From Deltaproteobacteria bacterium (GTDB lineage Bacteria > Desulfobacterota > Desulfobacteria > Desulfobacterales > Desulfatibacillaceae), in contig JACRLG010000011.1 of the NCBI GenBank assembly GCA_016235345.1, positions 1-64,000 of the forward strand: a stretch of 64,000 nt of DNA, in the 5' to 3' direction. The first letter of the stretch is position 1. Each line of letters begins with the position of its first letter. Position numbers and translations under genes: made by a program. The notes beneath the pieces were generated by a model that was not told where the DNA came from, ran no database searches, and worked only from the letters and a program-made list of their open reading frames with translations. Positions 2,611 to 18,829 of the stretch are shown in pieces.

Positions 2611-3891
2611 TTAGGTTTTTTTAAAGACGACGCAGGCGTTGACGTCGCCGAATCCGAAACTGGCTTTGGCCAGGTTTTTCAAGTCCGGTTTTTCAATGAA
2701 ATTCCGGACCACGCTATTTGCAAAGGGTTCGATTTCCGGGTGCAGGTCTTCGCAGTTGAGCGAAGTATGCAAAAAGCCCCCGTAGAGTTCCAAAACAGCG
2801 GCCACGCATTCGATGGCCCCGGCAGCGCCCAGGCAGTGGCCAAAAAGGGATTTGGGCGCATTGATGAAAGGGAAATTTTCAGGCCCCCTCCTAAGGGCCG
2901 CCGCCCAGTTTTGTATCTCCAAAGGGTCGGCGAAGGTGGCGGTAAGGTGTCCTGAAATTGCGTTAAGCTCTTCCGTCAGGATGCCCGAATCCAAAAGCGC
3001 GCCTTTTATGCACCGTTTGACTCCCTCGCGGTTTGGGGCTGTCATGGTGCCGCCGTTGCGCTGCCCGCCCGAATTCAGGCTGCCTCCGGCCACTTCCGCG
3101 TAAATCCGAGCGCCCCGCCTGACGGCGGTTTCATAATCTTCCAAAACCAGGATGCCCGCGCCTGCTCCAGGCACGAAGCCGCAGGCCGAGGCGCTCATGG
3201 GGCGGGAACCCTCTTTGGGTGAGGAATTGAATTTTCGGCACAAAACCATCATGGAATCGAACCCGGCCCAGGTATATGGCGAAGAGCCTTCCGCGCCCCC
3301 TGCCAGCATCCGTTTGGCCGCACCGCACCGGATGTGTCGGGCCGCCTCGATTACGGCCTCGGTGCCTGTTGAGCAGGCCGACGCGTTGGATGACGTGCGG
3401 TTTCCCAGGCCTAGAAGCCCGGCCACCTGGGCGGTGGCGCCGCTGTGCATGACATGCTCGATTATGCGGCTTCCCATACGGCGCACCTGGCCGGCGTTCA
3501 CCAGCGGAACGATTTTGTTGGCTATGGTGTCCATATCGCCTATGCCCGTGCCTATGACGGCCCCGGTGTCCCAGTCAGGCTCGCCGTCCGGGTCGGGTTC
3601 GGAAAGTCCGGCATCCTTCCAGGCCAAAAGGGCTGCGGTACTTCCGTAGGCGATGGAGGCCGGAAGCGAGCCAAGGGCTTCGCCGCCCAGAATTTCACCG
3701 CCCACCGCGTTGAAATCAGGCACAATTCCCGCTATCTGGCAGGCAAAGCCGTTTTCCGACAGCTCCGGGCAAAAACGTATTCCAGACGCGCCCTCTTTTA
3801 GCGCCTTTTCAAAATCGGGCAGGCGGCTTCCTATGGGGCTGACCACCCCAAGGCCTGTAACAACCACTTTTTTCCGGCGATTATCGGGCAA
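2611..3891 (-). CDS. fabF: 3-oxoacyl-ACP synthase II (FabF-type ketosynthase)
   Basis: Condenses acyl groups with malonyl-ACP. Normal KAS II length (426 aa) with the full Cys-His-His-Lys set: Cys173 in SACSTG, His315 in SGHLTAT, Lys347 and His352 in PKSLFGH. The His315 motif is unusual, since most FabF proteins read HGTST there, so substrate or ACP preference may differ. The reading frame overlaps the end of fabZ by 11 bp, so the two are translationally linked. The gene belongs to a fabD-ER-fabZ-fabF-ACP operon. It could also be a ketosynthase of a specialised lipid or polyketide pathway. Confidence 0.9.
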   Translation of the reverse strand: MPDNRRKKVVVTGLGVVSPIGSRLPDFEKALKEGASGIRFCPELSENGFACQIAGIVPDFNAVGGEILGGEALGSLPASIAYGSTAALLAWKDAGLSEPDPDGEPDWDTGAVIGTGIGDMDTIANKIVPLVNAGQVRRMGSRIIEHVMHSGATAQVAGLLGLGNRTSSNASACSTGTEAVIEAARHIRCGAAKRMLAGGAEGSSPYTWAGFDSMMVLCRKFNSSPKEGSRPMSASACGFVPGAGAGILVLEDYETAVRRGARIYAEVAGGSLNSGGQRNGGTMTAPNREGVKRCIKGALLDSGILTEELNAISGHLTATFADPLEIQNWAAALRRGPENFPFINAPKSLFGHCLGAAGAIECVAAVLELYGGFLHTSLNCEDLHPEIEPFANSVVRNFIEKPDLKNLAKASFGFGDVNACVVFKKT

Positions 3892-4354
3892 GGTCCACCC
3901 CCATTCCGGTCAAAATGCCGGAACACGCAGGCTCGCCGTTTTCCAGAGTCACCCGTACACGGGTCTTGATGGTCCGGGCGCGGAAGTAAATTTTTTCGCC
4001 CGTTATAATCGCCCGTGCGCCCGGAGGAACAAGTTTCGTGAACTCCGCCTCCTCCACCCGTGTAAAAACAAACATGCTCCGCCTGATGGTTTCGGGCGGC
4101 GCCCCCTTTTTCAGCATAAGGTATATGGCGTGGGCCACTGCCCCTGTCTGCGCCATGGCTTCTATAAGAATGACTCCCGGCGTGACCGGATGCCCAGGAA
4201 AATGTCCCTTGTAGAAAAATGAGTCCTCCCCGAACCGGCAGACGCCCTCGATTTGCATGTCATCCAAAGAGAGGATGTCATCCAAAAATCGGAACGGGTG
4301 CTGTTGGGGGACCAGGGAAAGTACGAGGCTTTTGTCTGTTTGGTTCGCATCCAT
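3881..4354 (-). CDS. fabZ: 3-hydroxyacyl-ACP dehydratase (FabZ-like hotdog protein)
   Basis: Dehydrates 3-hydroxyacyl-ACP to the 2-enoyl form. The 157-residue hotdog protein shows the active-site segment GHFPGHPVTPG followed by IEAMAQ, giving the catalytic His and, on the central helix, the Glu of FabZ. It is close to the usual FabZ length, so isomerase activity of the FabA type is not indicated. It starts 9 bp after the enoyl reductase stop and overlaps fabF. Confidence 0.9.
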   Translation of the reverse strand: MDANQTDKSLVLSLVPQQHPFRFLDDILSLDDMQIEGVCRFGEDSFFYKGHFPGHPVTPGVILIEAMAQTGAVAHAIYLMLKKGAPPETIRRSMFVFTRVEEAEFTKLVPPGARAIITGEKIYFRARTIKTRVRVTLENGEPACSGILTGMGVDLAR

Positions 4355-4363
4355 GATTTTTCC

Positions 4364-5185
4364 TCAGCCTGCAATGTGCTCTCCTCCATCTGCGTGAAGA
4401 AAGGCCCCGTTGATCCAGGCAGCCTCGTCCGTGGAGAGGAGAAATACGGTGTTTGCCACGTCTTCGGGCCGGGTGAGGCGGCCAAGGGGATTTTTCAGGG
4501 CTGCGCCATGAAGCATTTCCTTATGTCCGGGTATTGCCGCCAGTGCCGGAGTGGGGCATATTCCGGCCTGGATAATGTTGGCGCGAATTCCGTATGGCGC
4601 ATATTCAAAGGCAATGGCCCGCACAAGGGCCTCCAGGGCGGCCTTGGCTGCGGAAACCGCTGCATATCCGCGCCAGGCCAGGGTTGATCCCTGGCTGGTG
4701 AGGCCCAGAACCCTTGCATCGTCGGCGAACATACCCCGCTCGAAAGTATCCCTTGTCCAGTCGGCCAGACTGGTGGACATGGCGTGAATCGTGTGGTCGA
4801 AATCCTCGCGTCTGAGAATTGTTCCGGTTTCCCCTCTCTCTTGTCCGCCCGGCCCGGCAGGAGCCAGCGGCTTCAAGTTTCCGAAAGCTATGGAGTGGAG
4901 CATCGTGCGGATTCTGCCGCTCTTTCCCATGGCGTTTTTGACTTCATCCAGAACCCTTGTACGGCCTTCATCCGAAAGCGCATCGGCATTGAACGCGAAA
5001 ACCTTCACCCCGGTTTGGCGAATTTGGTCGAAACAAAGCGTAATGCGGTCCATGGAGCCTCTCCTGTCCCGGTGGACCAGAACAAGGTTCATGCCGTGGG
5101 CCGCCAGCTTTTGGGCCGTGGCGAGGCCGAACCCGGAAGACGCCCCAAGGATTATCGCAAAGTGGCCGGAGTCGAATCGCATCAT
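4364..5185 (-). CDS. Enoyl-ACP reductase, FabL/FabI-type short-chain dehydrogenase
   Basis: An SDR with the nucleotide-binding motif GASSGFG (residues 14-20). Its active-site spacing is Tyr174-x6-Lys181, the enoyl-reductase pattern, and not the Tyr-x3-Lys of FabG-type ketoreductases. The segment around it, YAAVSAAKAALEALVR, is close to FabL proteins. It ends in a DGGEHIAG tail typical of FabI/FabL. Its ATG overlaps the fabD stop (ATGA), so translation is coupled. It supplies the last reductive step of this mini-FAS; the ketoreductase step has no gene in the cluster. Confidence 0.8.
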   Translation of the reverse strand: MMRFDSGHFAIILGASSGFGLATAQKLAAHGMNLVLVHRDRRGSMDRITLCFDQIRQTGVKVFAFNADALSDEGRTRVLDEVKNAMGKSGRIRTMLHSIAFGNLKPLAPAGPGGQERGETGTILRREDFDHTIHAMSTSLADWTRDTFERGMFADDARVLGLTSQGSTLAWRGYAAVSAAKAALEALVRAIAFEYAPYGIRANIIQAGICPTPALAAIPGHKEMLHGAALKNPLGRLTRPEDVANTVFLLSTDEAAWINGAFLHADGGEHIAG

Positions 5186-6138
5186 CAGGCCGCCTCCCTG
5201 TTTTCAAAGGCCCGCCGGGCCGTGGCAAGGCTGGTTACAGCCCGGGCATCTATGCCGATTGACCGGAAAAAGCCCGAAAGTGGCCGGGCCGGGCCTATTT
5301 CCACCACCTGGGTAGCCTTCTTCATCAGAGCCTCCATGTTGTTTTCCCACAACACCGGCCGCGACACCTGAAGAGTCAGCGCGTCAGTTATGCGCTGGGA
5401 ATCCGGCTCGTGAAAAAGCCCCGTAACGTTCGATGTCACGTTCCGGGCCTTTGCCGTGTCCCAATTGATTTTCGCATCTTCCAGGGCCTCGCCGAAAGGC
5501 GCGCAAACGGGCGCCATAAAACGGCTGTGAAAAGGCGCGCTTACGTTTAAAGGCACGAAGCGCCAGTCACCCCGGTTATCCAAAAGTCCGCCCAATCGTT
5601 TTTCGGCCTCCCCGAATGCCCTCAAAAGCCCGCCTATCACAATCTGGCCGGAATAATTGACATTGGCCACATCAAGAGGCAGGTCCGCCAGAGCGGCCTG
5701 TATTTCCTCCATCCCGATGTTCCGGGCGATTACGGCGGCCATGCCTCCGGTTCCTTGGGGACAGGCCGTTTGCATCAGTTTTCCCCGCAAACTGACCAGT
5801 TGTGCGGCTATGCCCAGGGGCATGACACCCGCCGCCACCAGGGCCGCGTATTCGCCAAGGCTGTGGCCGCCGTAACAGGAGGGTGTTAATCCGTAATGCA
5901 CGCAAAGCCCCCGGAACATGGCGATTTCGGTTGTAAGGATGAGGGGCTGGGCAAACTCGGTCAGGTTCAGCGACGGGTTTTGGCTGAAACACATTGCCGC
6001 AGTGTCCCACATAAGGGCCTCGGATGCCTCTTGGAATGCCGCGCGGCTTTCGGGAAATTGATCGAAAAATTCTTTCCCCATTCCGAAGCATTGGGAGCCC
6101 TGACCCGGAAAGACCACGGCTGTTGATTGTTTTTCCAT
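5185..6138 (-). CDS. fabD: Malonyl-CoA:ACP transacylase
   Basis: Loads malonyl units onto ACP. The N-terminus reads VVFPGQGSQ, the nucleophile is Ser93 in GHSLGEYAAL, and a later PFHSRFM supplies the second-half catalytic His. I chose the ATG at 6138 because AGGAA lies 9 bp upstream and the protein then begins just before the FPGQGSQ motif; an in-frame ATG at 6168 is possible. First gene of the minus-strand fab operon, with a 9-bp inverted repeat about 70-105 bp upstream. Confidence 0.92.
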   Translation of the reverse strand: MEKQSTAVVFPGQGSQCFGMGKEFFDQFPESRAAFQEASEALMWDTAAMCFSQNPSLNLTEFAQPLILTTEIAMFRGLCVHYGLTPSCYGGHSLGEYAALVAAGVMPLGIAAQLVSLRGKLMQTACPQGTGGMAAVIARNIGMEEIQAALADLPLDVANVNYSGQIVIGGLLRAFGEAEKRLGGLLDNRGDWRFVPLNVSAPFHSRFMAPVCAPFGEALEDAKINWDTAKARNVTSNVTGLFHEPDSQRITDALTLQVSRPVLWENNMEALMKKATQVVEIGPARPLSGFFRSIGIDARAVTSLATARRAFENREAA

Positions 6139-6208
6139 TTCCTGTTCCTGTGTTTGATGAGTCCGCAAAAAGCCTCGAAAGGTTTCCTCAACACCTTTAT
6201 GATGTATT

Positions 6209-6243: not shown

Positions 6244-6602
6244 GTCTGGATCAAAGAGGCTTTTTACAAGGCTATCGTTGTTTAAGGAGCTTCCCTAAAC
6301 GCCCCAGCACCGATAAACAAAAGCAGGAACCGTGCCGTGGCAGACTTTTATTACTTAATAATTTGATAAAATAAGATAAATTGAGCACCTCCCTGTTGGC
6401 CCCTTCCGGGAAGGAATACTTTGAGAGAGCAAGAAATGTACGGGCCTTGTGCATGGAGTGTATGGAGGCAAATTCATCGATGGGGGAAATGGCGGAAGGC
6501 CGTTTGACAATCGGTTCCGATTCTGGAAATATCGGCGCGGAATTGACCCGACCGTCAACCCGATCCTCCTTTTGTTATTTTTCCGGAGTCCACATTACTC
6601 CC

Positions 6603-8135
6603 ATGAGAACAAAACAAAGCCTCACAGACGCGGAGCGGGAGTTTTTCGCCCTGGTGCAAAAGACCGGCGTGGCCAACCCCTATGGGAAGATCAGGGCCGA
6701 ACTCGAATCGCAGGTGGCGAAATATTGCTCTGACCAAACCTTCGAACCGGGAATCGAGCGAGCCACAAAAGCGGTGAAGGATCGTCTGGCCGCTTTGGAG
6801 GCCCAAGGCGTCCGAAGGATTGAAATGCTTTCGGGCAAGGATCGCGCCCTTCTGGAAAGCGCATATCTCTTTGATTTTTTCTACGAGTTTCGGAAAAAAT
6901 TCGATGAACATATCGTCGAGCAATTGGCGGCCGGTGAAAAAACCGTAAAGCTTTCCTGGGCCGGGGATGGCATAGCCCATCTGGCTTCGCGGGGCTTTGG
7001 CCCGGAAAGGATAACGCGGGCCTTTGAGCTTGGATACCAGTTCCGGCGCGCCTTTTACTTCATCAATCACGGGCTGGCTGGCCGAAGCCCGGTGATGCGC
7101 AAGTTGAAGTTCGACATCTGGAACAACATCTTCACCCACAACGTGAGCCTTTATGAGCGCTATCTGTGGAACCGCATGGAGGATTTTTCAACGCTGCTTC
7201 TGGGTGAAACCGGCACGGGCAAGGGAGCCGCAGCCGGGGCTATCGGGCGGGCGGGCTATATTGCCTTCAACCTCAAAAAACAGCGCTTCGAGGAGAGCTT
7301 CACCAAAAGTTTCATCTCCATAAACCTTTCCAGTTTCCCTGAGACCCTCATCGAGAGCGAGCTTTTCGGGCATAAAAAAGGGGCGTTCACCGGGGCTGTG
7401 GAAAACCACGCCGGCAAGTTCGCACAATGCGGGCCTCACGGAACCCTTTTATTGGACGAAATAGGTGAAATCCCTCACCATATACAGATAAAGCTGCTGC
7501 ACGTACTTCAGGACCGCGAGTTCAACCCGGTGGGAAGCCACAAAGCCGAATCCTTTCACGGACGCGTAATCGCCGCCACCAACAGGCCCATAGACGACCT
7601 TAGAAAGCGAGGAGCCTTCAGGGATGATTTTTATTACCGGCTGTCATCCGATATCATAGTCATGCCGCCATTGCGGCGTCGGCTGCGTGAAGACCCGGCT
7701 GAACTGGACACCCTTCTGAATTTTCTGGTCACGCGAATAATCGGAAAGCCTTCGCCTGAGCTTTGCCGCATGGTGAAGGATGTTATCGGCAAGAATCTGG
7801 GCATGGATTACCCCTGGTACGGAAACGTGCGGGAGCTGGAGCAGTGCGTCAGGCGGGTGCTCCTGAAGCGGGTCTATGAAGGCAAAAGCGGGGATGAGGC
7901 GGACGATATTTTTTCACAACTCGCCCATGCGATGGAATCAGGGGATATACCTGCCCAGAGGCTCTTGTCGGGCTATTGCGTCCTTCTTTACCGGCGTTAC
8001 GGAACCTATGAGGAAGTTGCCAGAAGAACCAGGCTCGACCGCCGCACGGTCGCCAAGTATGTGTCCGACTGGACCGAAGGGAACAACGGAGCGAAAACGC
8101 CGGATGTCTCAGACGATGTCGAAATAGACAAGTGA
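6603..8135 (+). CDS. Sigma-54-dependent transcriptional activator with an unassigned sensor domain
   Basis: An AAA+ activator of sigma-54 RNA polymerase. Domain order: about 200 residues of helical N-terminal region that I cannot assign, then the AAA+ domain with Walker A GETGTGKG, GAFTGA loop and a Walker B-like LLLDEIGE, then a weak C-terminal helix-turn-helix (TYEEVARRTRLDRRTVAKYV). The ATG at 6603 is preferred because the upstream extension to 6381 is low-complexity and unlike protein. Divergent from the fab operon, which it may control; no -24/-12 promoter for fabD was recognised, so the target is open. Confidence 0.85.
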   Translation: MRTKQSLTDAEREFFALVQKTGVANPYGKIRAELESQVAKYCSDQTFEPGIERATKAVKDRLAALEAQGVRRIEMLSGKDRALLESAYLFDFFYEFRKKFDEHIVEQLAAGEKTVKLSWAGDGIAHLASRGFGPERITRAFELGYQFRRAFYFINHGLAGRSPVMRKLKFDIWNNIFTHNVSLYERYLWNRMEDFSTLLLGETGTGKGAAAGAIGRAGYIAFNLKKQRFEESFTKSFISINLSSFPETLIESELFGHKKGAFTGAVENHAGKFAQCGPHGTLLLDEIGEIPHHIQIKLLHVLQDREFNPVGSHKAESFHGRVIAATNRPIDDLRKRGAFRDDFYYRLSSDIIVMPPLRRRLREDPAELDTLLNFLVTRIIGKPSPELCRMVKDVIGKNLGMDYPWYGNVRELEQCVRRVLLKRVYEGKSGDEADDIFSQLAHAMESGDIPAQRLLSGYCVLLYRRYGTYEEVARRTRLDRRTVAKYVSDWTEGNNGAKTPDVSDDVEIDK

Positions 8136-8886: not shown

Positions 8887-9462
8887 ATGGGACGAAAAAA
8901 CAACGCCGAGGTCAGACGAAATGAAATCGTCCAGGCGCTATATGCATGCCTTTCGGAAAAAGGGCATGAAAAAGTCACGACCAAGGAAATAGCCCTTCAG
9001 GCCGGATTGGCGCCCGGCGTAATCCACTATTACTTCAAGTCCAAGGATGAAATCGTCACCTGCCTGATGGATCATCTGGCCGGAAAATACCAAGCTCTTT
9101 TTGGAGAAAAAATGCAGGAGCTTTCAAACAGCAGCGAGTTTCTCAAAGCCTTCGCTAATTTTTTATGCGACGAATTTGTTTTTGACCAGGGACTCAATCG
9201 GGTCTTCTACAATCTGGTCCAGATGGGTTTTGAGAGCCAAGTGGTAGTAAAGCCTTTGCGTCTGCTCATGGAAAATTACCGGGCCCGGGGAAACCTGCAC
9301 TTCCGGCAACTCTATTCCCCGATAAAAAACGCCGGGTATCTTGTGGTGGCTTTGATCGAGGGGCTGGCTCTTCAATGGATGATTGAGCCGGATGACAGCC
9401 GAAAAGAGGACATCAGAAATCTTGTCCAATTTACCATGGAGGGAATTTTAAGTGCGGTTTGA
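8887..9462 (+). CDS. TetR/AcrR-family transcriptional regulator
   Basis: A 191-residue one-domain regulator. The N-terminal HTH is clear (residues about 10-55: EIVQALYACLSEKG, then VTTKEIALQAGLAPGVIHYYFKSKDEI in two adjoining parts), and the C-terminal ligand domain ends in VVALIEGLALQWMIE. It stands upstream of ald, the aminotransferases and the amidohydrolase in the same direction and probably controls them. A TetR C-terminal remnant of the same type lies at 10923-11138. Confidence 0.88.
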   Translation: MGRKNNAEVRRNEIVQALYACLSEKGHEKVTTKEIALQAGLAPGVIHYYFKSKDEIVTCLMDHLAGKYQALFGEKMQELSNSSEFLKAFANFLCDEFVFDQGLNRVFYNLVQMGFESQVVVKPLRLLMENYRARGNLHFRQLYSPIKNAGYLVVALIEGLALQWMIEPDDSRKEDIRNLVQFTMEGILSAV

Positions 9463-9704: not shown

Positions 9705-10817
9705 ATGATCGTCGGAGTGCTCAAGGAAATTAAGGCGGAGGAAAACCGCGTGTCCATGACGCCCGCCGGGGCGGAGGTCATGGTCCAGAACGGCCACGAG
9801 GTCTGGGTGGAAAAGAACGCCGGCATCAATTCCGGCCTGCCGGACGAGGCCTATATCCAGGCCGGGGCCTCCATCAAGGACACGCCCGAGGAAATCTTTG
9901 ACGGGGCCGAGATGGTAATGCACGTCAAGGAGCTCCTGCCGCCGGAGTATGGCCTCATCCGGCCCGGCCAGATCGTGTTCACCTACCTGCACCTGGCTGC
10001 GGCCGAAGAGCTGACCCGGGCCCTGATCCAAAGCGATTCGGTGTGCATTGCTTATGAAACCATTCAGAAAACCGACGGGTCCCTCCCCCTGCTCACACCC
10101 ATGAGCGAGGTGGCCGGCCGCATGGCCATCCAGCAGGGGGCCAAGTACCTGGAAATGGAAAAGGGCGGCCACGGTATCCTCCTGGGCGGAGTGCCCGGCG
10201 TGGACCCGGGCACGGTGCTGGTCATCGGCGGTGGAGTGGTTGGCATCAACGCGGCCAAGATGGCCTGCGGCCTGGGTGCCAAGGTCTACCTTCTGGACAT
10301 GTCTCTGTCCCGCCTGCGTTACCTTTCAGATGTCATGCCCGCCAACTGTTTTTTGATCAAGTCCAGCCCCTCGGCCATCCGCAAATACAGCCTGGAAGCC
10401 GACGTTGTGGTGGGCGCGGTGCTCATTCCGGGCACCAAGGCCCCCCGCCTGATCACCCGGGACATGCTGCCTTCCATGAAGCGCGGCGCGGTTCTGGTGG
10501 ACGTTGCAATCGACCAGGGCGGCTGTTTTGAGACATCCAGGGCCACCACCCACTCGGACCCCATCTACATCGTGGATGGGGTTGTGCATTACTGTGTGAC
10601 CAATATGCCCGGGGCCGTGGCCAAGACCTCCACTATGGCCCTGACCAACGCAACCCTGCCCTACGCAGTGGAAATCGCCGACAAGGGCTGGAAAGCCGCC
10701 TGCGAACAAAACCAGGAAATCGCCCTGGGCGCCAACGTGGTCCACGGCAAGATCACCTATCCCGGGGTGGCCGAGGCCTTTGGCCTGGAGTACACGCCCC
10801 TGAAAGAACTGCTATAA
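9705..10817 (+). CDS. ald: Alanine dehydrogenase
   Basis: NAD-dependent oxidative deamination of L-alanine to pyruvate and ammonium. 370 residues, the normal family length. It shows the N-terminal [14 protein letters not shown] segment, Lys in [11 protein letters not shown], His in FTYLHLAA and the Rossmann motif [13 protein letters not shown]. Start chosen at 9705, preceded by an AGGAGGGGG ribosome-binding site. The gene is visibly more G+C-rich than the tetR and aminotransferase genes around it, like the molybdopterin oxidoreductase at 14885. Beside a class III aminotransferase it would regenerate pyruvate as amino acceptor, as in the known Tpa-Ald taurine pathway; the substrate here is unknown. 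Confidence 0.95.
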
Positions 10818-10922
10818 TGGTAAACGGGGGCCCTGATGGCCCCCGTCGCTATAGGAAAAAAAGCCGTTTCTGTGTCGAAGTGGAAACCCGGGATATTTCT
10901 CAGCCAAAAATCAAAAGGGGTT

Positions 10923-11138
10923 ATGCATAGCGGCACCGAGTTTGATCCGGTTCAGGCCGCAATGCTGGTGGCGGTTATTGAGGGCCTTGCGCTGCAAAGG
11001 ATGGTCGACTCCACTGCTTTTAGCCGCAACGAGGCGAGGAGGCAGGTTACCGTAATTGTGGCCGCATGTCTTAACCAGGATCAACCTCAAAAAGGTAAAC
11101 CTAAAGCCGGAAAGGTTAATGATCATGAATGGAACTGA
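10923..11138 (+). pseudogene. C-terminal remnant of a TetR-family regulator
   Basis: An open frame with VAVIEGLALQRMVD followed by a final helix aligns with the end of the intact TetR at 8887-9462 (VALIEGLALQWMIE), but no HTH precedes it. The tail runs past the next gene's start by about 20 bp. It is best read as the stump of a second, paralogous regulator lost when the aminotransferase and ald genes were brought together. Confidence 0.6.
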
Positions 11139-12501
11139 AAAAATGGAACTATCGCCGAAGAAAAAACAGATGCTGGCGAAGTTTGGAACGCACGTATCCA
11201 GGGGACAGATCCGGTTTTTATCGGCCGGCCACCTGGACATCTTCGAAGGAAAAAGAAAGGGCGTTCATTTTTATGAGAGCGTTACCGGAAAGCGATATGT
11301 TGACGGATTTTCCTCGGCCGGCTGTTTCAACGTCGGACGGGGCAATCCGGAGATATTGGACGAACTTCGCGCCGCAGTCCGAGATGGGAGTGACATGGGA
11401 TCCGCAGGGCTCCTTTCGCGGCACAAGGTGGAATTCGCAAAAAAGCTGGTCCAAGCCTGCCCGGGGGACCTCAACCGTGTGATTTTTGCCGGAAGCGGCG
11501 CCGATGCCGTGGATGGAGCCATAAAGCTTGCCCTTGGAGCCACCGGAAGGACCAAGATCCTTTCCATGGTAAAAGCCTATCACGGACACTCCGGGTTCAG
11601 CCTCTCCGCCAACGGCAAGGCTTACTATAAGGAATTGTTCGAGCCTTTGATGCCCAATTTCGATTTCCTGCCATTCGGAGACCTCAATGCCTTTATCCGA
11701 AAGGCGGACACAAATACGGCCGCCGTCATCCTTGAACCCATTCAGGGAGAGGGTGGTATTCATGTGGCTAGCGATGAATACCTCGCCGGACTCCGAAAGC
11801 ATTGCGACAATCTGGGCATACAACTCATCTTCGATGAAATCCAAACCGGCTTCGGCCGCACCGGGAAGCTTTGGGCCTCCGAGCATTCCGGCGTGGTTCC
11901 GGACATCATGGTGCTTGCCAAGGCGATTGGTGGAGGGATCTACCCCAACGGAGCCATCGTCTATCGGGACACGCCTGTATTAACGGATTTTACAGAAAAG
12001 AATCCCTGGTTCCATGTTTCCCTGGGAGGCGGTTCGGACATCGGCTGCCGAATCTCGTCCAAGGTTTTGGACTATATCCTGGAAAACCGGCTTTGGGAGA
12101 ATGCCGAAAGGATGGGCGGTAAAATCCGGAACGGGCTTTTAAAGCTTCAGGAGCAAAATCCTGAAATCATCCTGGAGGTCCGGGGGCGTGGCATGATGAT
12201 GGGCCTGGAATACAAACATGATTTCATGGGCATGCTTATGGCTGAATGTTTGAGTCGCAAGGGCATGTTCGCCGCCTACTCCGGGAACGCCCCCCAGGTG
12301 ATGCGCTTCCAGATTCCCCTCACACTTTCCGAGTCTGAGACGGACGAGGTGATTTCCATTATCGAGGAGGCCCTTAAAATCATGAAGCTCTACCTTATTC
12401 TCCTCATGCCCCTTTCCCGGCTGCCCTTAATCGGAAGGGTCCTGAACAATCAGAAGGTGCTCATCTCTTCGAGCGCTTTTCTAAGAAAGTTTGGATTCTA
12501 A
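11119..12501 (+). CDS. Class III (omega-type) PLP aminotransferase
   Basis: Transfers an amino group between an amine or omega-amino acid and probably pyruvate. It retains the fold-type I class III determinants: AGSGAD phosphate loop (about 125-130), YHGHSG, Asp239 in [13 protein letters not shown] that binds the pyridine nitrogen, and the Schiff-base Lys268 in VLAKAIGGG (codon AAG 11920-11922). A C-terminal extension of about 35 hydrophobic residues ([16 protein letters not shown]) is unusual. Start at 11119 or 11125; GGAAAGG precedes. Its paralogue follows 26 bp downstream. Confidence 0.9.
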
Positions 12502-12527
12502 CATCAAATCCTGATCGGAGGCGAAGC

Positions 12528-13760
12528 ATGATGAACGACATCACATCGGGCCATGAGTTACTGCAAGAAGCCCAGAATTACTTTCCAAAGGCCCTGATTT
12601 CCGGTTTGGCGGCAAAGGGGCATGATTTCTTCGAGTCGGGTTCAGCCGGCGCGTGGTTATATGACGAAAAGAAAAATGCCATTCTGGATGCTTATACATC
12701 CGGTGGAACACACAATCTGGGACGAAGCCGCCCGGAACTCGGGCAGGCATTATTGAATGCGGCTGAAAAAACAGACCAGGGAAATTTTGTCCTGGTTTCA
12801 AAAGAAAAGGTTCGCCTGGTTGAACGGCTGGCCCGTTTTATGCCCTATGATCTTTCTTGTATGCTTTTCACCGTAGTCCGGGGTGAGGCCATGGACGCGG
12901 CATGCAAGGTGGCCAGGGGGCATACGGAAAGAACCGAGCTTATAACCGTGGATGGTGGATGGTATGGTCAGACAGGGTTTGCCATGAGCCTTTCGGATCG
13001 GATAGATAAAGCTGACTATGGCCCCCTGATTCCGGACGTAAAAACCATTCCCTTCGGAGACGGAACCGCCGCGGAAAAAGCGGTGACAGCACGCACTGCA
13101 GCAGTGATTCTGGAACCGGTCCAGGCTGAAAACGGTTGCCGGACAGCTACTCGGGAGTATCTCGGGCAATTGAGGAGGGTCTGCGATCAAAAAGGGGCTC
13201 TCTTGATTCTGGATGAGACTCAGACCGGATTTGGACGCACCGGAACGAAGTTCGCCTGCGAAGGCCTGGGGGCTTCTCCGGATATTCTGATCTTTGGCGA
13301 GGCCCTTGCAGGTGGAATGTTTCCCATGTGCGGGCTCGCCTTCCCTCCCAGAATCAAAGCCTTTTTTGATAAGCACCCGCTCATTCACTTATGCACTTTC
13401 GGTGGGCACGATGTGGGATGCCTTGTGGCCGATAAAGCCCTGGACTTGTATGAAACCCTGAAACCATGGAATAACGCCAAAAGGCAGGGGGAAAGAATCC
13501 TGAATGGGTTGAAGCCCCTGGCGGGAGAATATCCCGATACATTCCGGTCTGTAGCCGGACTGGGCCTTCTTTTATCAATCCAACTGACCTCCACTGAAAA
13601 GGCCTTGGCCTTTTGCAAGGCCGCCAGAACCCAGGGCCTTCTGTGCGTCCCGGGAGAGGTCCTGAAATCCTCTGTTGTGCTCAGGCCGCCCCTCACCTTG
13701 ACGGATGAAGAGTCGAGAAAACTCATAGAAGCCATTCAGAATACGCTTAAAAGAATCTAA
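12528..13760 (+). CDS. Class III aminotransferase homologue lacking the PLP lysine
   Basis: A 410-residue paralogue of the preceding aminotransferase. The position of the Schiff-base lysine is Glu258 (IFGEALAGG; codon GAG at 13299-13301). The phosphate-binding SG(T/A) loop is replaced by VVRGEA (116-121), and the usual YHG reads WYG. The pyridine-binding Asp in [13 protein letters not shown] is kept and the frame is open throughout with normal codon use, so it does not look like simple decay. It may be a non-catalytic partner of the upstream enzyme, a regulatory or ligand-binding protein, or an enzyme with different chemistry. Confidence 0.85.
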   Translation: MMNDITSGHELLQEAQNYFPKALISGLAAKGHDFFESGSAGAWLYDEKKNAILDAYTSGGTHNLGRSRPELGQALLNAAEKTDQGNFVLVSKEKVRLVERLARFMPYDLSCMLFTVVRGEAMDAACKVARGHTERTELITVDGGWYGQTGFAMSLSDRIDKADYGPLIPDVKTIPFGDGTAAEKAVTARTAAVILEPVQAENGCRTATREYLGQLRRVCDQKGALLILDETQTGFGRTGTKFACEGLGASPDILIFGEALAGGMFPMCGLAFPPRIKAFFDKHPLIHLCTFGGHDVGCLVADKALDLYETLKPWNNAKRQGERILNGLKPLAGEYPDTFRSVAGLGLLLSIQLTSTEKALAFCKAARTQGLLCVPGEVLKSSVVLRPPLTLTDEESRKLIEAIQNTLKRI

Positions 13761-13788: not shown

Positions 13789-14727
13789 ATGAACGAACTG
13801 CGCATCCCAAAATCCCATCCCGTCATCGACGCGCACACTCACATCGGAGACATATTAACCAGGGGCGGGGGCGAAATCATCTGGAACATGGGAGTAGGCA
13901 AACCTCTGATTTTTGATCCCATCACTCTCTGGGGATTGGTGGGTTATCGCAATTTCGGCCTTGGAAACCTGCTATACCGTCTTTCTCTCAGCCAGGCCAT
14001 CACGGCCGAACAGGTTCGCAGCCGGACCGCAACCCTGGAAAATCTCCGAAAATCCATGGATCGATTGGGCATAACACATAGCGCCTGCATGCCAGTCCAT
14101 CCTTACGTGGTCTATGGCGATCTGGCGGAAGCCGCCGCCCAGGACCCCGGCGTGATCCCGTTTACCACCGTGGATTTGGCGGTGGGCGGCGATTTTGAAG
14201 CACAGCTTACGGCGGACAAGGCGGGTGGAGCAAAGGGACTCAAGCTCCACGGCATAATCCAGAAGGTGGCCCTGGACGATCCGCGCACCCACAAAGCGGT
14301 GGAAGCCGCGGGCAAGGCGGGGCTTGCCGTGCTGTTCCACTGCGGCATTTCCAATTATTATAAAGGGGAAGAGAAAGACAGGAATATCCCGGAATACGGC
14401 GCCGTTGATTACGCCGTGCGCTTGGTGCGGGAACATCCGGACGTGCGTTTTGTAGTGGGCCACGCCGGCATGTACGAAGTGAAGGAAGTCATGGAAAAAC
14501 TGGCCGCCTTCAAAAATGTCTGCGTGGACACCTCGATCCAGTCCGCGGCCAATATAAGGAAACTGATTAAGGTTTTAGGCCCAGACCGGGTGCTTTTTGC
14601 TTCGGACTGGCCCTTTGGCGATGCCTGGGCCGCCCTGGCCTGTGCGCGTAAAGCCTGCAAAGGAGACGGGCCTCTGCTTCGGAAAGTTTTATACGAAAAC
14701 GCGGCAAGGGTTTACGGCATTGGGTAA
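13789..14727 (+). CDS. Amidohydrolase-2 family metal-dependent hydrolase
   Basis: A TIM-barrel hydrolase or decarboxylase of the Amidohydro_2 family. Metal-site motifs in order: DAHTHIG (15-21), GLKLHG, LFHCG, VGHAG and the terminal ASDWPFG. The last Asp is the catalytic acid/base. Members hydrolyse C-N or C-O bonds or decarboxylate beta-keto and aromatic acids, so the exact reaction cannot be read from sequence. It starts 28 bp after the second aminotransferase and probably belongs to the same transcript. Confidence 0.85.
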   Translation: MNELRIPKSHPVIDAHTHIGDILTRGGGEIIWNMGVGKPLIFDPITLWGLVGYRNFGLGNLLYRLSLSQAITAEQVRSRTATLENLRKSMDRLGITHSACMPVHPYVVYGDLAEAAAQDPGVIPFTTVDLAVGGDFEAQLTADKAGGAKGLKLHGIIQKVALDDPRTHKAVEAAGKAGLAVLFHCGISNYYKGEEKDRNIPEYGAVDYAVRLVREHPDVRFVVGHAGMYEVKEVMEKLAAFKNVCVDTSIQSAANIRKLIKVLGPDRVLFASDWPFGDAWAALACARKACKGDGPLLRKVLYENAARVYGIG

Positions 14728-14780: not shown

Positions 14781-14870
14781 ATGACGAAGCCCAAGAGGTA
14801 TTCAGGCGAATTTGAGGCGACGGTGGCCTTGGCGGCGATGAAGGGTGATCAGACGATAGCGCAGCCTTAA
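14781..14870 (+). pseudogene. IS3-family transposase orfA stub
   Basis: The 29-codon frame reads MTKPKRYSGEFEATVALAAM then KGDQTIAQP and a stop. This is the conserved beginning of IS3-family OrfA proteins (the xEFxxxVALxAxxGxxTxAxLA pattern). Nothing further of the element is left, and the molybdopterin oxidoreductase begins 14 bp later. It marks a rearrangement junction upstream of that gene. Confidence 0.75.
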
Positions 14871-14884
14871 CAAAGGAGGAACCC

Positions 14885-17389
14885 ATGGAAAAATGGCATC
14901 AGACCGGCTGCGTCCTTTGCTCCCAAAACTGCGGCATCGAGGTTCTTGTGCGGGACAACCGCATGGTCAAGATCCGGCCGGACAAAACCAATCCCCGAAG
15001 CCGGGGATACATATGCCGCAAGGGCTTGAACGTCTTTCACCACCAGCACAACGCGGACCGGCTTACCCACCCCCTCAAACGCCACGGCAAGGGATTTCAA
15101 AAGATCACCTGGGAGCAGGCCTTTTCCGAGATCGCCGGGAAGCTGTCAAACATTCTGGAAAAACACGGGCCAAGGTCCTTTGCCTACATGGGCGGCGGCG
15201 GCCAGGGCTGCCATTTTGATGCACCCTTCGGAATCTGTTTTATGCGGGCCCTGGGCTCTCAATACCACTACAACGCCCTTGCTCAGGAACTGACGGGCTA
15301 TTACTGGGTCAACGGCCGCATGCTGGGCCGCCAGAACCGCGTCCCCGTGCCCGACGAGGACCGCTCGGACATGCTCATTGCCTGGGGCTGGAACGGCATG
15401 CAGAGCCACCAGATGCCCCGGGCCCCCCTGGTCCTGAAGGAGTTTGCCGACAATCCGGACAAAATCCTTGCCGCGGTGGACCCCAGAAAATCCCAAACCG
15501 CAACAACCGCCAACATCCACCTTGCCCTCAGGCCCGGGACCGACGCCCTGTTAATCCGGGCTCTCATCAGCCTGATCCTGGAAATGGGCTGGGAGGACAA
15601 GGACTACATCCGGCAGCACGTTTCAGGGTGGGACAAGGTGAGGCCCTGGTTTACCGGCTTTGACGTAAAGGGAGCCTTGAAGGTCTGCGGGCTGGAATAT
15701 CAGGAGGTCGAGGACTTCTGCCTGCTTCTTTCCACCCGCAAATGGTGCGTGCATCCGGACCTTGGCCTGATCATGAACCGCCACTCCACCCTGGCCTCCT
15801 ACCTCCTGAATCTCCTGGCGACTGTATGCGGGCGCTTTTGCGTGCCCGGTGGCAACCACCTGCCGCCCATTGTCCTGCCCCTGGGTCTGGACTCCGACGA
15901 GCGCGCCCCCGGGACCTGGCGAACCATGGAGACTGGTTTTTTCGCCATCAACGGGTATTTTCCGCCCAACGTCCTTCCAGAGGAAATACTTGCCGACAAG
16001 CCCGAGCGAGTGCGGGTCGTGCTGACCTGTGGCTCCAACCCCTTGCGCTCCTACGCCGACACTTCGGCTTACGAAAAGGCTTTCAGGGAACTGGACCTAT
16101 TGGTGACCGTGGAACTGGCAATGACCGAGACCGCTCGAATGGCCCATTACGTCCTGCCTGCGCGCTCGGCCTATGAATCCTATGACGGTACGTTTTTCCC
16201 CTGGACGCCCAAGTCGTTTTTCCAGATGCGACGGCCCATTGTGGAGCCCGAGGGCGAGCCTTTGGAATGCGGCGAAATATTCACCGGCCTGGCCGACGCC
16301 ATGGGCCTCATCCCGCCCATTCCGGACTCCCTTTACCAGGCCGCCCAAAAGGGCCCCATGGATTTTTCCCTGGCAGCGGCCCCCTGGATCCAGAACACCC
16401 CCCAGGCTCTTCAGAGGCTTCCCTTTATTCTGGCCAAGACCCTGGGCCGGGAGATGGGCTCGGCCCACCTGGCCATGCTATTCGGCCTCCTGCAGCAGCG
16501 GCTGGCCGCCTACAAGGACCCGGATGGGAGGATCCTGGAGCCCATGGACCTATTTGACCGGATCCTTAATGGCCGGGGACTCCTGCCCGAGTATCCGGGC
16601 CTGCTGGCCAAGGGCCCTGAAAGCCTTAAAAAGCACTGGAGCACCCTCTACGGCCTTTCCCGCGTGCGACCCACATCTGCCGTGGCCGAGGCCGACCGTC
16701 AGGGTTTTTCCACGGCCAGGGCCGTAATAAAGGCCCTCGCTCCCGACCGTGTAGTTAAAGTACTCCAGGCCGCTGTCAGGCAGCGCAGCTACCTGCCACT
16801 TATGGAACTCTCGCCCACGGCGGTTCTGGCCCAGGAGATGTTCCAGGCCATTTTGGATCACCCCGAAGGCGTCTGGTTGGGTGAGGGCCATCCGGACAAC
16901 TTCCGGGAAATAAGGACCCCTGATGGCAAGATCCAAGTCCATGTTCCTGAACTCAAGGACTGGCTCCTTGGCCTTTCGCCCGAAGCCGAGACAAAGGCGC
17001 TCGCCCCGGACCCGGACTTCCCCTTTGTTCTCCTGGCGGGACGGCACGTCAAAACCAACGCCAACACCCTCATGCGAAATCCGGAATGGAACAAAAAGCT
17101 CCGGGATTGCACACTCCTGATGAACCCGGCCGACGCCGAAAAATTAAATCTGTCGGACGGCCAGATGGTGCGCGTCCGCACCCATGCCGGTCACGAGGTC
17201 CTGGAACTTGAGGTCACCGATTCGGCCAGGCCAGGCCAGGTGGCCATGCCCCACGGGTCCGGACTTCAATACGACGGCCGGGTCCACGGCGCCAACGTTA
17301 ACCGGCTGACAAGCAACACTCACCGTGACCCCCTGGCAGGCACGCCCCTGCACCGCTACGTGCCTTGTCGGGTGGAGGCGGCTGAATAG
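14885..17389 (+). CDS. Molybdopterin (bis-MGD) oxidoreductase, single catalytic subunit
   Basis: An 834-residue catalytic subunit of the DMSO-reductase superfamily. The N-terminus has a [4Fe-4S] motif CVLCSQNC with the fourth Cys in YICRKG, followed by the Molybdopterin and Molydop_binding domains (C-terminal LLAGRHVKTNANTLMRN, then SDGQMVRVRT). No Tat signal is present, so it should be cytosolic. AAAGGAGG lies upstream of the ATG. No electron-transfer subunit follows. High G+C is shared with ald. It could oxidise an aldehyde or acid released by the neighbouring enzymes, or be a formate dehydrogenase-like protein; the sequence does not decide. Confidence 0.85.
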   Translation: MEKWHQTGCVLCSQNCGIEVLVRDNRMVKIRPDKTNPRSRGYICRKGLNVFHHQHNADRLTHPLKRHGKGFQKITWEQAFSEIAGKLSNILEKHGPRSFAYMGGGGQGCHFDAPFGICFMRALGSQYHYNALAQELTGYYWVNGRMLGRQNRVPVPDEDRSDMLIAWGWNGMQSHQMPRAPLVLKEFADNPDKILAAVDPRKSQTATTANIHLALRPGTDALLIRALISLILEMGWEDKDYIRQHVSGWDKVRPWFTGFDVKGALKVCGLEYQEVEDFCLLLSTRKWCVHPDLGLIMNRHSTLASYLLNLLATVCGRFCVPGGNHLPPIVLPLGLDSDERAPGTWRTMETGFFAINGYFPPNVLPEEILADKPERVRVVLTCGSNPLRSYADTSAYEKAFRELDLLVTVELAMTETARMAHYVLPARSAYESYDGTFFPWTPKSFFQMRRPIVEPEGEPLECGEIFTGLADAMGLIPPIPDSLYQAAQKGPMDFSLAAAPWIQNTPQALQRLPFILAKTLGREMGSAHLAMLFGLLQQRLAAYKDPDGRILEPMDLFDRILNGRGLLPEYPGLLAKGPESLKKHWSTLYGLSRVRPTSAVAEADRQGFSTARAVIKALAPDRVVKVLQAAVRQRSYLPLMELSPTAVLAQEMFQAILDHPEGVWLGEGHPDNFREIRTPDGKIQVHVPELKDWLLGLSPEAETKALAPDPDFPFVLLAGRHVKTNANTLMRNPEWNKKLRDCTLLMNPADAEKLNLSDGQMVRVRTHAGHEVLELEVTDSARPGQVAMPHGSGLQYDGRVHGANVNRLTSNTHRDPLAGTPLHRYVPCRVEAAE

Positions 17390-17612: not shown

Positions 17613-18260
17613 CTAAAACCCCACATGTTGTGGCGCCCGGAAAGCCCGGGAGTGGGCTGTGGAATAGCAGATTGGAAATACTCGATCCTGGGGTTTGAAG
17701 CCGAGTTCCGAAATAAATTTTTCAAGCCGATCAGCGACTTTCTGTGGAATAAAGACGCCTTCGCCTTCGCGTTTGCTTTTGGGAGCCACAAGGTTCAGCT
17801 TGGTCCCCTTGACATCCATTACCCTCCGTTTCAAGACCTCACCCACCCTCATGCCGCCCCGGGCCATGAGTTTCAAAATCAGACGGGTACGGACATTCTC
17901 GGTCCGAAAGATCATTTCATCCACAACATCTTTGGGAAAGTTGTCCCTCTTTGGTATACCGGAATATCGGAAAAGTTTTCTAAGGACCGGGGAGTCACAT
18001 GGATTGGGGAAGCTATGGTTGGCTGTTTCTCGGACGAAATTGAAAAGGCACGGACTTGGCCAAAACGGTTTTTCTTGGTGGATGCCTTTTTGCCTTCTAC
18101 CAGCGGGGTAAGGAATGCAAGGATTTCTTCGGTGTTGATAGACTCGGCTTCTCTTGGACCGAATTGCTTGGCGAGCCTCACGAAGGTGTACTTATAGGTT
18201 TGGACGGTTTTTTTCCCCCGAATTGGCCCTGTGGCAGGCCAAGCAGAGATTAACGGCTTG
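17613..18260 (-). pseudogene. Tyrosine recombinase/integrase, frameshifted and truncated
   Basis: On the minus strand a SAM-like N-terminal domain (KQFGPREAESINTEEILAFL) is followed, after a one-base deletion in a T-run near 18050, by the continuing frame FVRETANHSF to KDVVDEMI. The core-domain start LMARGGMRVGEVLKRR holds the first catalytic Arg. The remaining catalytic residues (HxxR and the Tyr nucleophile) are missing. Flanking sequence at 17390-17612 shows no further homology. It is probably the former integrase of this island or of an element within it. Confidence 0.8.
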
Positions 18261-18376: not shown

Positions 18377-18829
18377 ATTTTTCTGACAAGCCCCTATTTC
18401 ATCCCGGATGAACCGATGTTATACGCGATAGAGTGCGCCGCCATGCGGGGAGTTGATGTAAGGCTTCTGGTTCCAGCAAGGGGGGATGTCGCCCTTGTGT
18501 CAAAAGCGGCTCGTTCCTACTACCCAGCTGTGCTGCGTTCGGGGGCGAGGGTTTACGAATATCTTCCTTCCATGCTCCACGCCAAAACGGTGGTTATGGA
18601 TGGCATGTGGTGCATAGTTGGCTCCGCAAATCTTGACATCAGAAGTTTCAGGCTGAACTTTGAACTGGGTATCCTCGTGAGGGACTCAAGTTTCGGAAGG
18701 CTTATGGAAGAACGCTTCTTTTCCGATCTTCGAAAAAGCCGGGAACTCAAGGCCGGAGATATGGAATCCGAAGGGCGCTGGAATAAAATGATACAGCGCA
18801 TCGCCCGACTCGTTTCACCCATGCTCTGA
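18377..18829 (+). pseudogene. Cardiolipin synthase (phospholipase D superfamily), C-terminal fragment
   Basis: The frame contains LTSPYFIPDE and then the second HKD motif HAKTVVMDGMWCIVGSANLD followed by RSFRLNFE, matching the last 150 residues of ClsA-type proteins. The membrane N-terminus and first HKD motif (about 320 residues) are absent, since homology begins abruptly near 18377. One HKD motif alone cannot catalyse transphosphatidylation unless it dimerises. It lies between the broken integrase and the P-type ATPase. Confidence 0.8.

Follow-up and report, generated by a model that had tools for sequence, protein, structure and literature searches.

Why is a gene for a class III aminotransferase followed directly by a paralogue that lacks the PLP lysine? 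The two genes are found in a window of 64,000 nucleotides, which is contig C11 of the 4.0-Mb genome G000. The upstream gene (11119–12501, plus strand) encodes a Lys268-bearing protein of 460 aa, here called subunit A. The downstream gene (12528–13760, plus strand) encodes a Lys-less homologue of 410 aa, here called subunit B, in which the loop HPLIHLCTFGG is kept. The genes are in tandem, and the 26-base gap after A contains a ribosome-binding site for B, GGAGG (12517–12521, plus strand), as judged from its letters. A and B share 32% identity.

Both proteins belong to the class III aminotransferase family by homology. They match the whole domain of the PF00202 profile with 284.1 bits (A) and 238.8 bits (B), against a cut-off of 30.5. 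For both, the nearest solved relative by sequence is the E. coli putrescine aminotransferase YgjG (PatA), with PigE close behind. YgjG is also the nearest solved relative of B by fold: the predicted monomer model of B is aligned to YgjG (4UOY) with a TM-score of 0.87 and a Z-score of about 42, corresponding to a YgjG-like fold type I. The AlphaFold model of A is poor (mean pLDDT 59) and too weak for fold comparison. Neither protein reaches the curated cut-offs for PatA, with scores of 304.9 (A) and 203.4 bits (B) for PRK11522, whose cut-off is 612, and of 249.3 and 178.6 bits for TIGR03372, whose cut-off is 658.65.

To compare active sites, 34 A/B pairs, 18 members of a related tandem pair (C/D, see below), and other controls were aligned to YgjG. 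The codon GAG at 13299–13301 (plus strand) encodes Glu258 of B, as the preliminary description had read it, and the alignment places it at YgjG Lys300 and A Lys268. The same description is borne out for the phosphate loop, where the SG motif is replaced by Arg118-Gly119-Glu120 (12879–12887, plus strand) in the sequence VVRGEA, with Arg118 at the position of YgjG Gly150, and for the pyridine Asp, which is present as Asp229 in an open frame. Gln232 and Glu201 are also retained. All 34 B proteins have Glu for Lys300 and Arg for Gly150, and all have lost Arg426. Besides Arg118 and Glu258, Asn86 is an invariant particular to B.

Thr332 of YgjG shows the opposite pattern. In the crystal structure of YgjG, Gly150, Thr151, and Thr332 hold the PLP phosphate, Thr332 being contributed by the other subunit (PMC4244111). 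Phe327, on the same lent loop, helps to form the entrance for the substrate (PMC4244111). The lent Thr is kept in 34/34 B proteins; here it is Thr290, encoded by ACT at 13395–13397 (plus strand). In A, the codon AAG at 11920–11922 (plus strand) encodes Lys268, which the preliminary description had named and which is aligned to YgjG Lys300, and the rest of the site includes the P-loop GSGADA, YHG, Asp239, Gln242, Glu211, and Arg396. However, A is not intact despite its lysine, a point missing from that description. At the position of the lent Thr332 (PMC4244111), the alignment places Leu302, encoded by CTG at 12022–12024 (plus strand). Lys and Arg426 are conserved in 34/34 A proteins, whereas Thr332 is found in 0/34. 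The residues seen there are Tyr (8), Ser (5), Ile (5), Leu (4), Phe (4), His (4), Met (2), Cys (1), and Trp (1), so that 29/34 have neither Thr nor Ser. Among the 47 Lys-bearing controls, Thr occupies this position in 36 and Ser in the other 11. The difference between A and the controls corresponds to a Fisher p of about 3e-17, a value that ignores the relatedness of the sequences.

A one-gene homodimeric class III aminotransferase has both the Schiff-base lysine and the lent phosphate Thr/Ser. A has the former and lacks the latter in most cases (Thr 0/34, Ser 5/34); B has the latter in 34/34 and Glu instead of the former in all. Jointly, the pair contains a complete set of PLP-site residues across one interface in 34/34 pairs, judged by sequence: Lys, Asp, Gln, Glu, and Arg from A and Thr from B. 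Because an A2 dimer would be without Thr and a B2 dimer without Lys, a complete site would be present only in A:B. A and B thus very probably constitute an obligate heteromeric class III aminotransferase with one working site per A:B dimer. The complementary loss itself, Lys in B and the donated Thr in A, was absent from the preliminary description.

The sequence features, the single origin, the joint inheritance, the purifying selection, and the complementary conservation are direct results; the physical A:B heterodimer, its PLP stoichiometry, and its reaction and substrate we infer. The enzyme could be an A:B dimer or A2B2, with a single functional site per A:B. A would provide the Schiff-base lysine, the phosphate loop, the pyridine Asp, and the Glu/Arg pair for the substrate. 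B would lend the loop HPLIHLxTFGG, in which Thr290 would close the PLP phosphate in the site of A, and the remaining residues of this loop would line the substrate entrance of the same site. The reciprocal pocket, composed of B residues and the altered loop of A, would be without Lys, phosphate loop, Arg426, and lent Thr, and would be incapable of PLP catalysis. The 5 A proteins with Ser, and several with Tyr or His, run counter to this proposal, as these residues might still touch the phosphate.

The conservation of whole windows shows the same division. Residues 283–295 of B (HPLIHLCTFGGHD; 13374–13412, plus strand) correspond to YgjG 325–337, and this loop is predicted to enter the active site of A. 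It is ranked first among 368 windows of 13 residues in B, with an entropy of 0.27 against a mean of 1.37. In A, the same loop shows average conservation (1.21 against a mean of 1.08). The windows most strongly biased to B are this loop and YgjG 113–130, while those more conserved in A are 390–405 and 415–428, which is A's own Arg426 lid. In the region matching YgjG 113–130, Phe89' of SpuC comes from the other subunit (PMC6308316). Phe87 of B (34/34) is aligned to the lent Phe88/89 of omega-transaminases in our own sequence alignment. This pattern indicates that selection acts in B on the parts given to the partner, and in A on the parts of its own site. The idea for the window test came from the motif table, and the two are not independent in the Thr column, although the test uses whole windows.

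It could be considered that B acts on an A homodimer as a distinct, non-catalytic regulator (an activator, inhibitor, or chaperone) or as a sensor of a ligand, with no shared active site. Asp229, Gln232, and Glu201 in the pocket of B, together with the invariants Arg118, Glu258, and Asn86, fit a remodelled ligand site. However, such an A homodimer would be without the phosphate Thr/Ser in 29/34 cases, and B is most strongly conserved in the segment that reaches into the neighbouring site rather than in the lid of its own pocket. A separate regulator is considered very improbable.

B could also be read as a catalyst of another type, PMP-dependent or cofactor-free, working through Glu258. PMP enzymes with His for Lys, such as ColD and E1, are known from other PLP folds. 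Position 258 of B is invariantly Glu, not merely non-Lys, and Asp229, Glu201, and Gln232 remain. On the other hand, B has lost Arg426 as well as the phosphate loop, in which Gly150 is changed to Arg, and A lends no Thr to this site, so the site of B is without an obvious phosphate anchor. A catalytic role of B through Glu258 is considered very improbable.

The proposed heterodimer also has to account for this pocket, since Asp229, Gln232, and Glu201 are more than a wholly dead site needs. With B's own invariant Arg118 and Glu258, their retention indicates that the pocket may have a second role. It can tentatively be speculated, though we doubt it, that the old site of B has been rebuilt, and that Arg118, Glu258, Asp229, Glu201, Gln232, and usually Trp145 form a site for another ligand, different from PLP, which switches the site of A across the interface. 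The result would be a two-gene allosteric class III aminotransferase originating from a symmetric homodimer. A has a C-terminal extension (aa 422–460; 12382–12498, plus strand). It is hydrophobic or amphipathic, seen in all A proteins, and absent from B, C/D, and YgjG. These approximately 40 residues could make contact with B or a membrane, or with a hydrophobic substrate.

Nine B homologues were recovered by scanning named genomes, in Desulfatibacillaceae, Desulfosudis, Spirochaetes, and Hydrogenedentes, with A upstream wherever the contig permits. Surveys with a B profile recovered B in 16/389 genomes of the class of the window, in 9/68 genomes of Hydrogenedentota (the phylum of L013), and at 12 loci in 11/198 genomes of Spirochaetota (the phylum of L012). 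The weaker matches in these surveys are Lys-bearing C/D relatives. Every B recovered (36 genomes, three phyla) has Glu at the position of the PLP lysine. Surveys with an A profile returned the same genomes: 15 A against 16 B in the class, 9/9 in Hydrogenedentota, and 12/12 loci in Spirochaetota. No A without B was seen in the class or in the two phyla. The sole B without A, in G202, is at a contig edge, and the pairs of G079 and G391 are each split over two contigs. The two genes are adjacent, often with a 4-base start/stop overlap. A fused A-B protein (a Rosetta-stone case) was sought and not found; of the open frames with A, the longest has 693 aa, owing to an upstream extension. The Spirochaetota genome G499 contains two distinct A/B pairs, L076 and L087, on different contigs and with different neighbours.

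The dN/dS of B is 0.13–0.19, near the value of A; one pair, in which synonymous sites are saturated, gives 0.10. The lost lysine is the one feature that a decaying pseudogene or a sequencing artefact would explain. The presence of Glu in every B homologue across three phyla indicates that it is not a sequencing error, and together with a dN/dS of about 0.1–0.2, open frames, and conserved pairing it leaves this explanation with nearly no probability; it was rejected. The preliminary description had allowed that a corrected read might give AAG, or that Lys might stand at this position in every other genome, either of which would have refuted its reading. All homologues have Glu, and no B with Lys was seen. 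It had also asked whether the Lys-less form is conserved as a clade and whether it always lies beside a Lys form. B is one clade with Glu throughout, and A adjoins it wherever the contig allows.

In the phylogeny from a quick IQ-TREE search, the A proteins form one clade and the B proteins another (support 100 for both). The two clades are sisters with moderate support (86), and B is on a long branch. Outside A+B are C (98) and D (94), and outside all of these are YgjG and other aminotransferases. The mirror-tree correlation between A and B is r = 0.76, where permutations reached at most 0.20, and the two trees have 21 of 31 splits in common. Most simply, each loss, Lys in B and Thr in A, was one event at the base of the clade and has been held since. 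Transfers between phyla seem to have involved both genes of the A/B pair together; the pairs of Spirochaetota and Desulfobacterota, for instance, intermix in both trees. These features fit the claim of the preliminary description that B is a selected, non-catalytic partner: purifying selection, a single old clade, constant pairing with A, and co-evolution with A.

C and D are encoded by another tandem class III pair, found in Desulfobacterota and Spirochaetota (L033–L045, L059–L064, L099, and L100). An SCP2-like gene is located between or beside them, followed by an amino acid (APC) permease. C and D both keep Lys and Thr/Ser, D having Ser at the position of the lent Thr. The C/D pair looks like the state before the A/B losses. 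The A/B system originated once, most likely by tandem duplication of a PatA-like gene, after which each copy would have lost what the other retained.

The neighbours of A/B vary by lineage, so the substrate is not fixed by the gene context. Alanine dehydrogenase, a TetR-family regulator, and an Amidohydro_2 protein are seen near 8, 14, and 8 of the surveyed loci, respectively, in Desulfobacterota and some Spirochaetota. Other Spirochaetota have rho and sigma genes there. In Hydrogenedentota, a Zn-alcohol dehydrogenase follows the pair, with overlapping genes in some. In the window, these recurrent neighbours are the TetR-family regulator (8887–9462), alanine dehydrogenase (9708–10817), and the Amidohydro_2 (PF04909) protein (13789–14727), all on the plus strand. 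A molybdopterin oxidoreductase (14885–17389, plus strand) adjoins A/B in some Desulfobacterota loci. Where alanine dehydrogenase is a neighbour, it suggests pyruvate/L-alanine as the amino partner. The class III enzyme TamH, which is related to YgjG and PigE, uses C7–C14 aldehydes as substrates, prefers L-Glu, and accepts L-Ala (PMC9594044). At the loci with alanine dehydrogenase, the likely reaction is a transamination in which a primary amine or an aldehyde is paired with pyruvate/L-alanine.

Several remnants and a separate cluster are seen around the pair. Immediately before A is a TetR C-terminal domain remnant (10824–11135, plus strand), with 44% identity over 68 aa to the TetR protein directly preceding A in L009. 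The remnant and the full TetR gene at 8887–9462 suggest that alanine dehydrogenase came to lie at this place through a rearrangement or duplication. A short ORF, MTKPKRYSGEFEATVALAAMKGDQTIAQP (14781–14870, plus strand), is located between the amidohydrolase and the molybdopterin oxidoreductase; it presumably resembles the start of an IS3-type transposase OrfA. A phage-integrase-like fragment under the Pfam cut-off (17613–17924, minus strand) and a PLD-domain fragment (18416–18829, plus strand) are probably truncated genes. Upstream is a small fatty-acid/polyketide-like cluster (2611–6168, minus strand) of a ketoacyl synthase, a FabA-like dehydratase, an SDR, and an acyltransferase, adjoined by a sigma-54-dependent regulator (6381–8135).

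Class III aminotransferases are textbook symmetric enzymes, and no heterodimeric member was found among the open-licence papers searched. Annotation pipelines would probably label both A and B "aminotransferase", and A expressed alone would probably show little or no activity. One of the surveyed genomes, G031, is a single-contig 3.94-Mb chromosome, so there may be a cultured host.

YgjG/PatA, PigE, and TamH have the map of the PLP site in common with A/B. YgjG, however, forms a homodimer whose two sites are equivalent and draw all their residues from one gene, and A/B score far under the PatA cut-off. GcvPA/GcvPB, the two-subunit glycine decarboxylase P-protein, are bacterial tandem PLP-enzyme paralogues with the lysine in one only, although they belong to another family and catalyse another reaction. 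In the serine palmitoyltransferase SPT1/SPT2 (LCB1/LCB2), a heterodimer, one paralogue is without the PLP lysine and a single site is at the interface (PMC6148460). The co-occurrence of a Lys-less paralogue with a Lys-bearing one is likewise seen in A/B, whose putative dimer would be another paralogue heterodimer in a PLP family of homodimers. SPT1/SPT2 differ in being eukaryotic alpha-oxoamine synthases with other chemistry. Unlike in SPT1/SPT2, the Lys-bearing A has also lost what it would lend, and the two losses are complementary. The closest relatives, C/D, are similarly tandem class III paralogues, but each retains both residues and could therefore still be a full enzyme. With the ancestor-like C/D pair in related bacteria, A/B is a clean test case for how obligate heteromers evolve by complementary loss.
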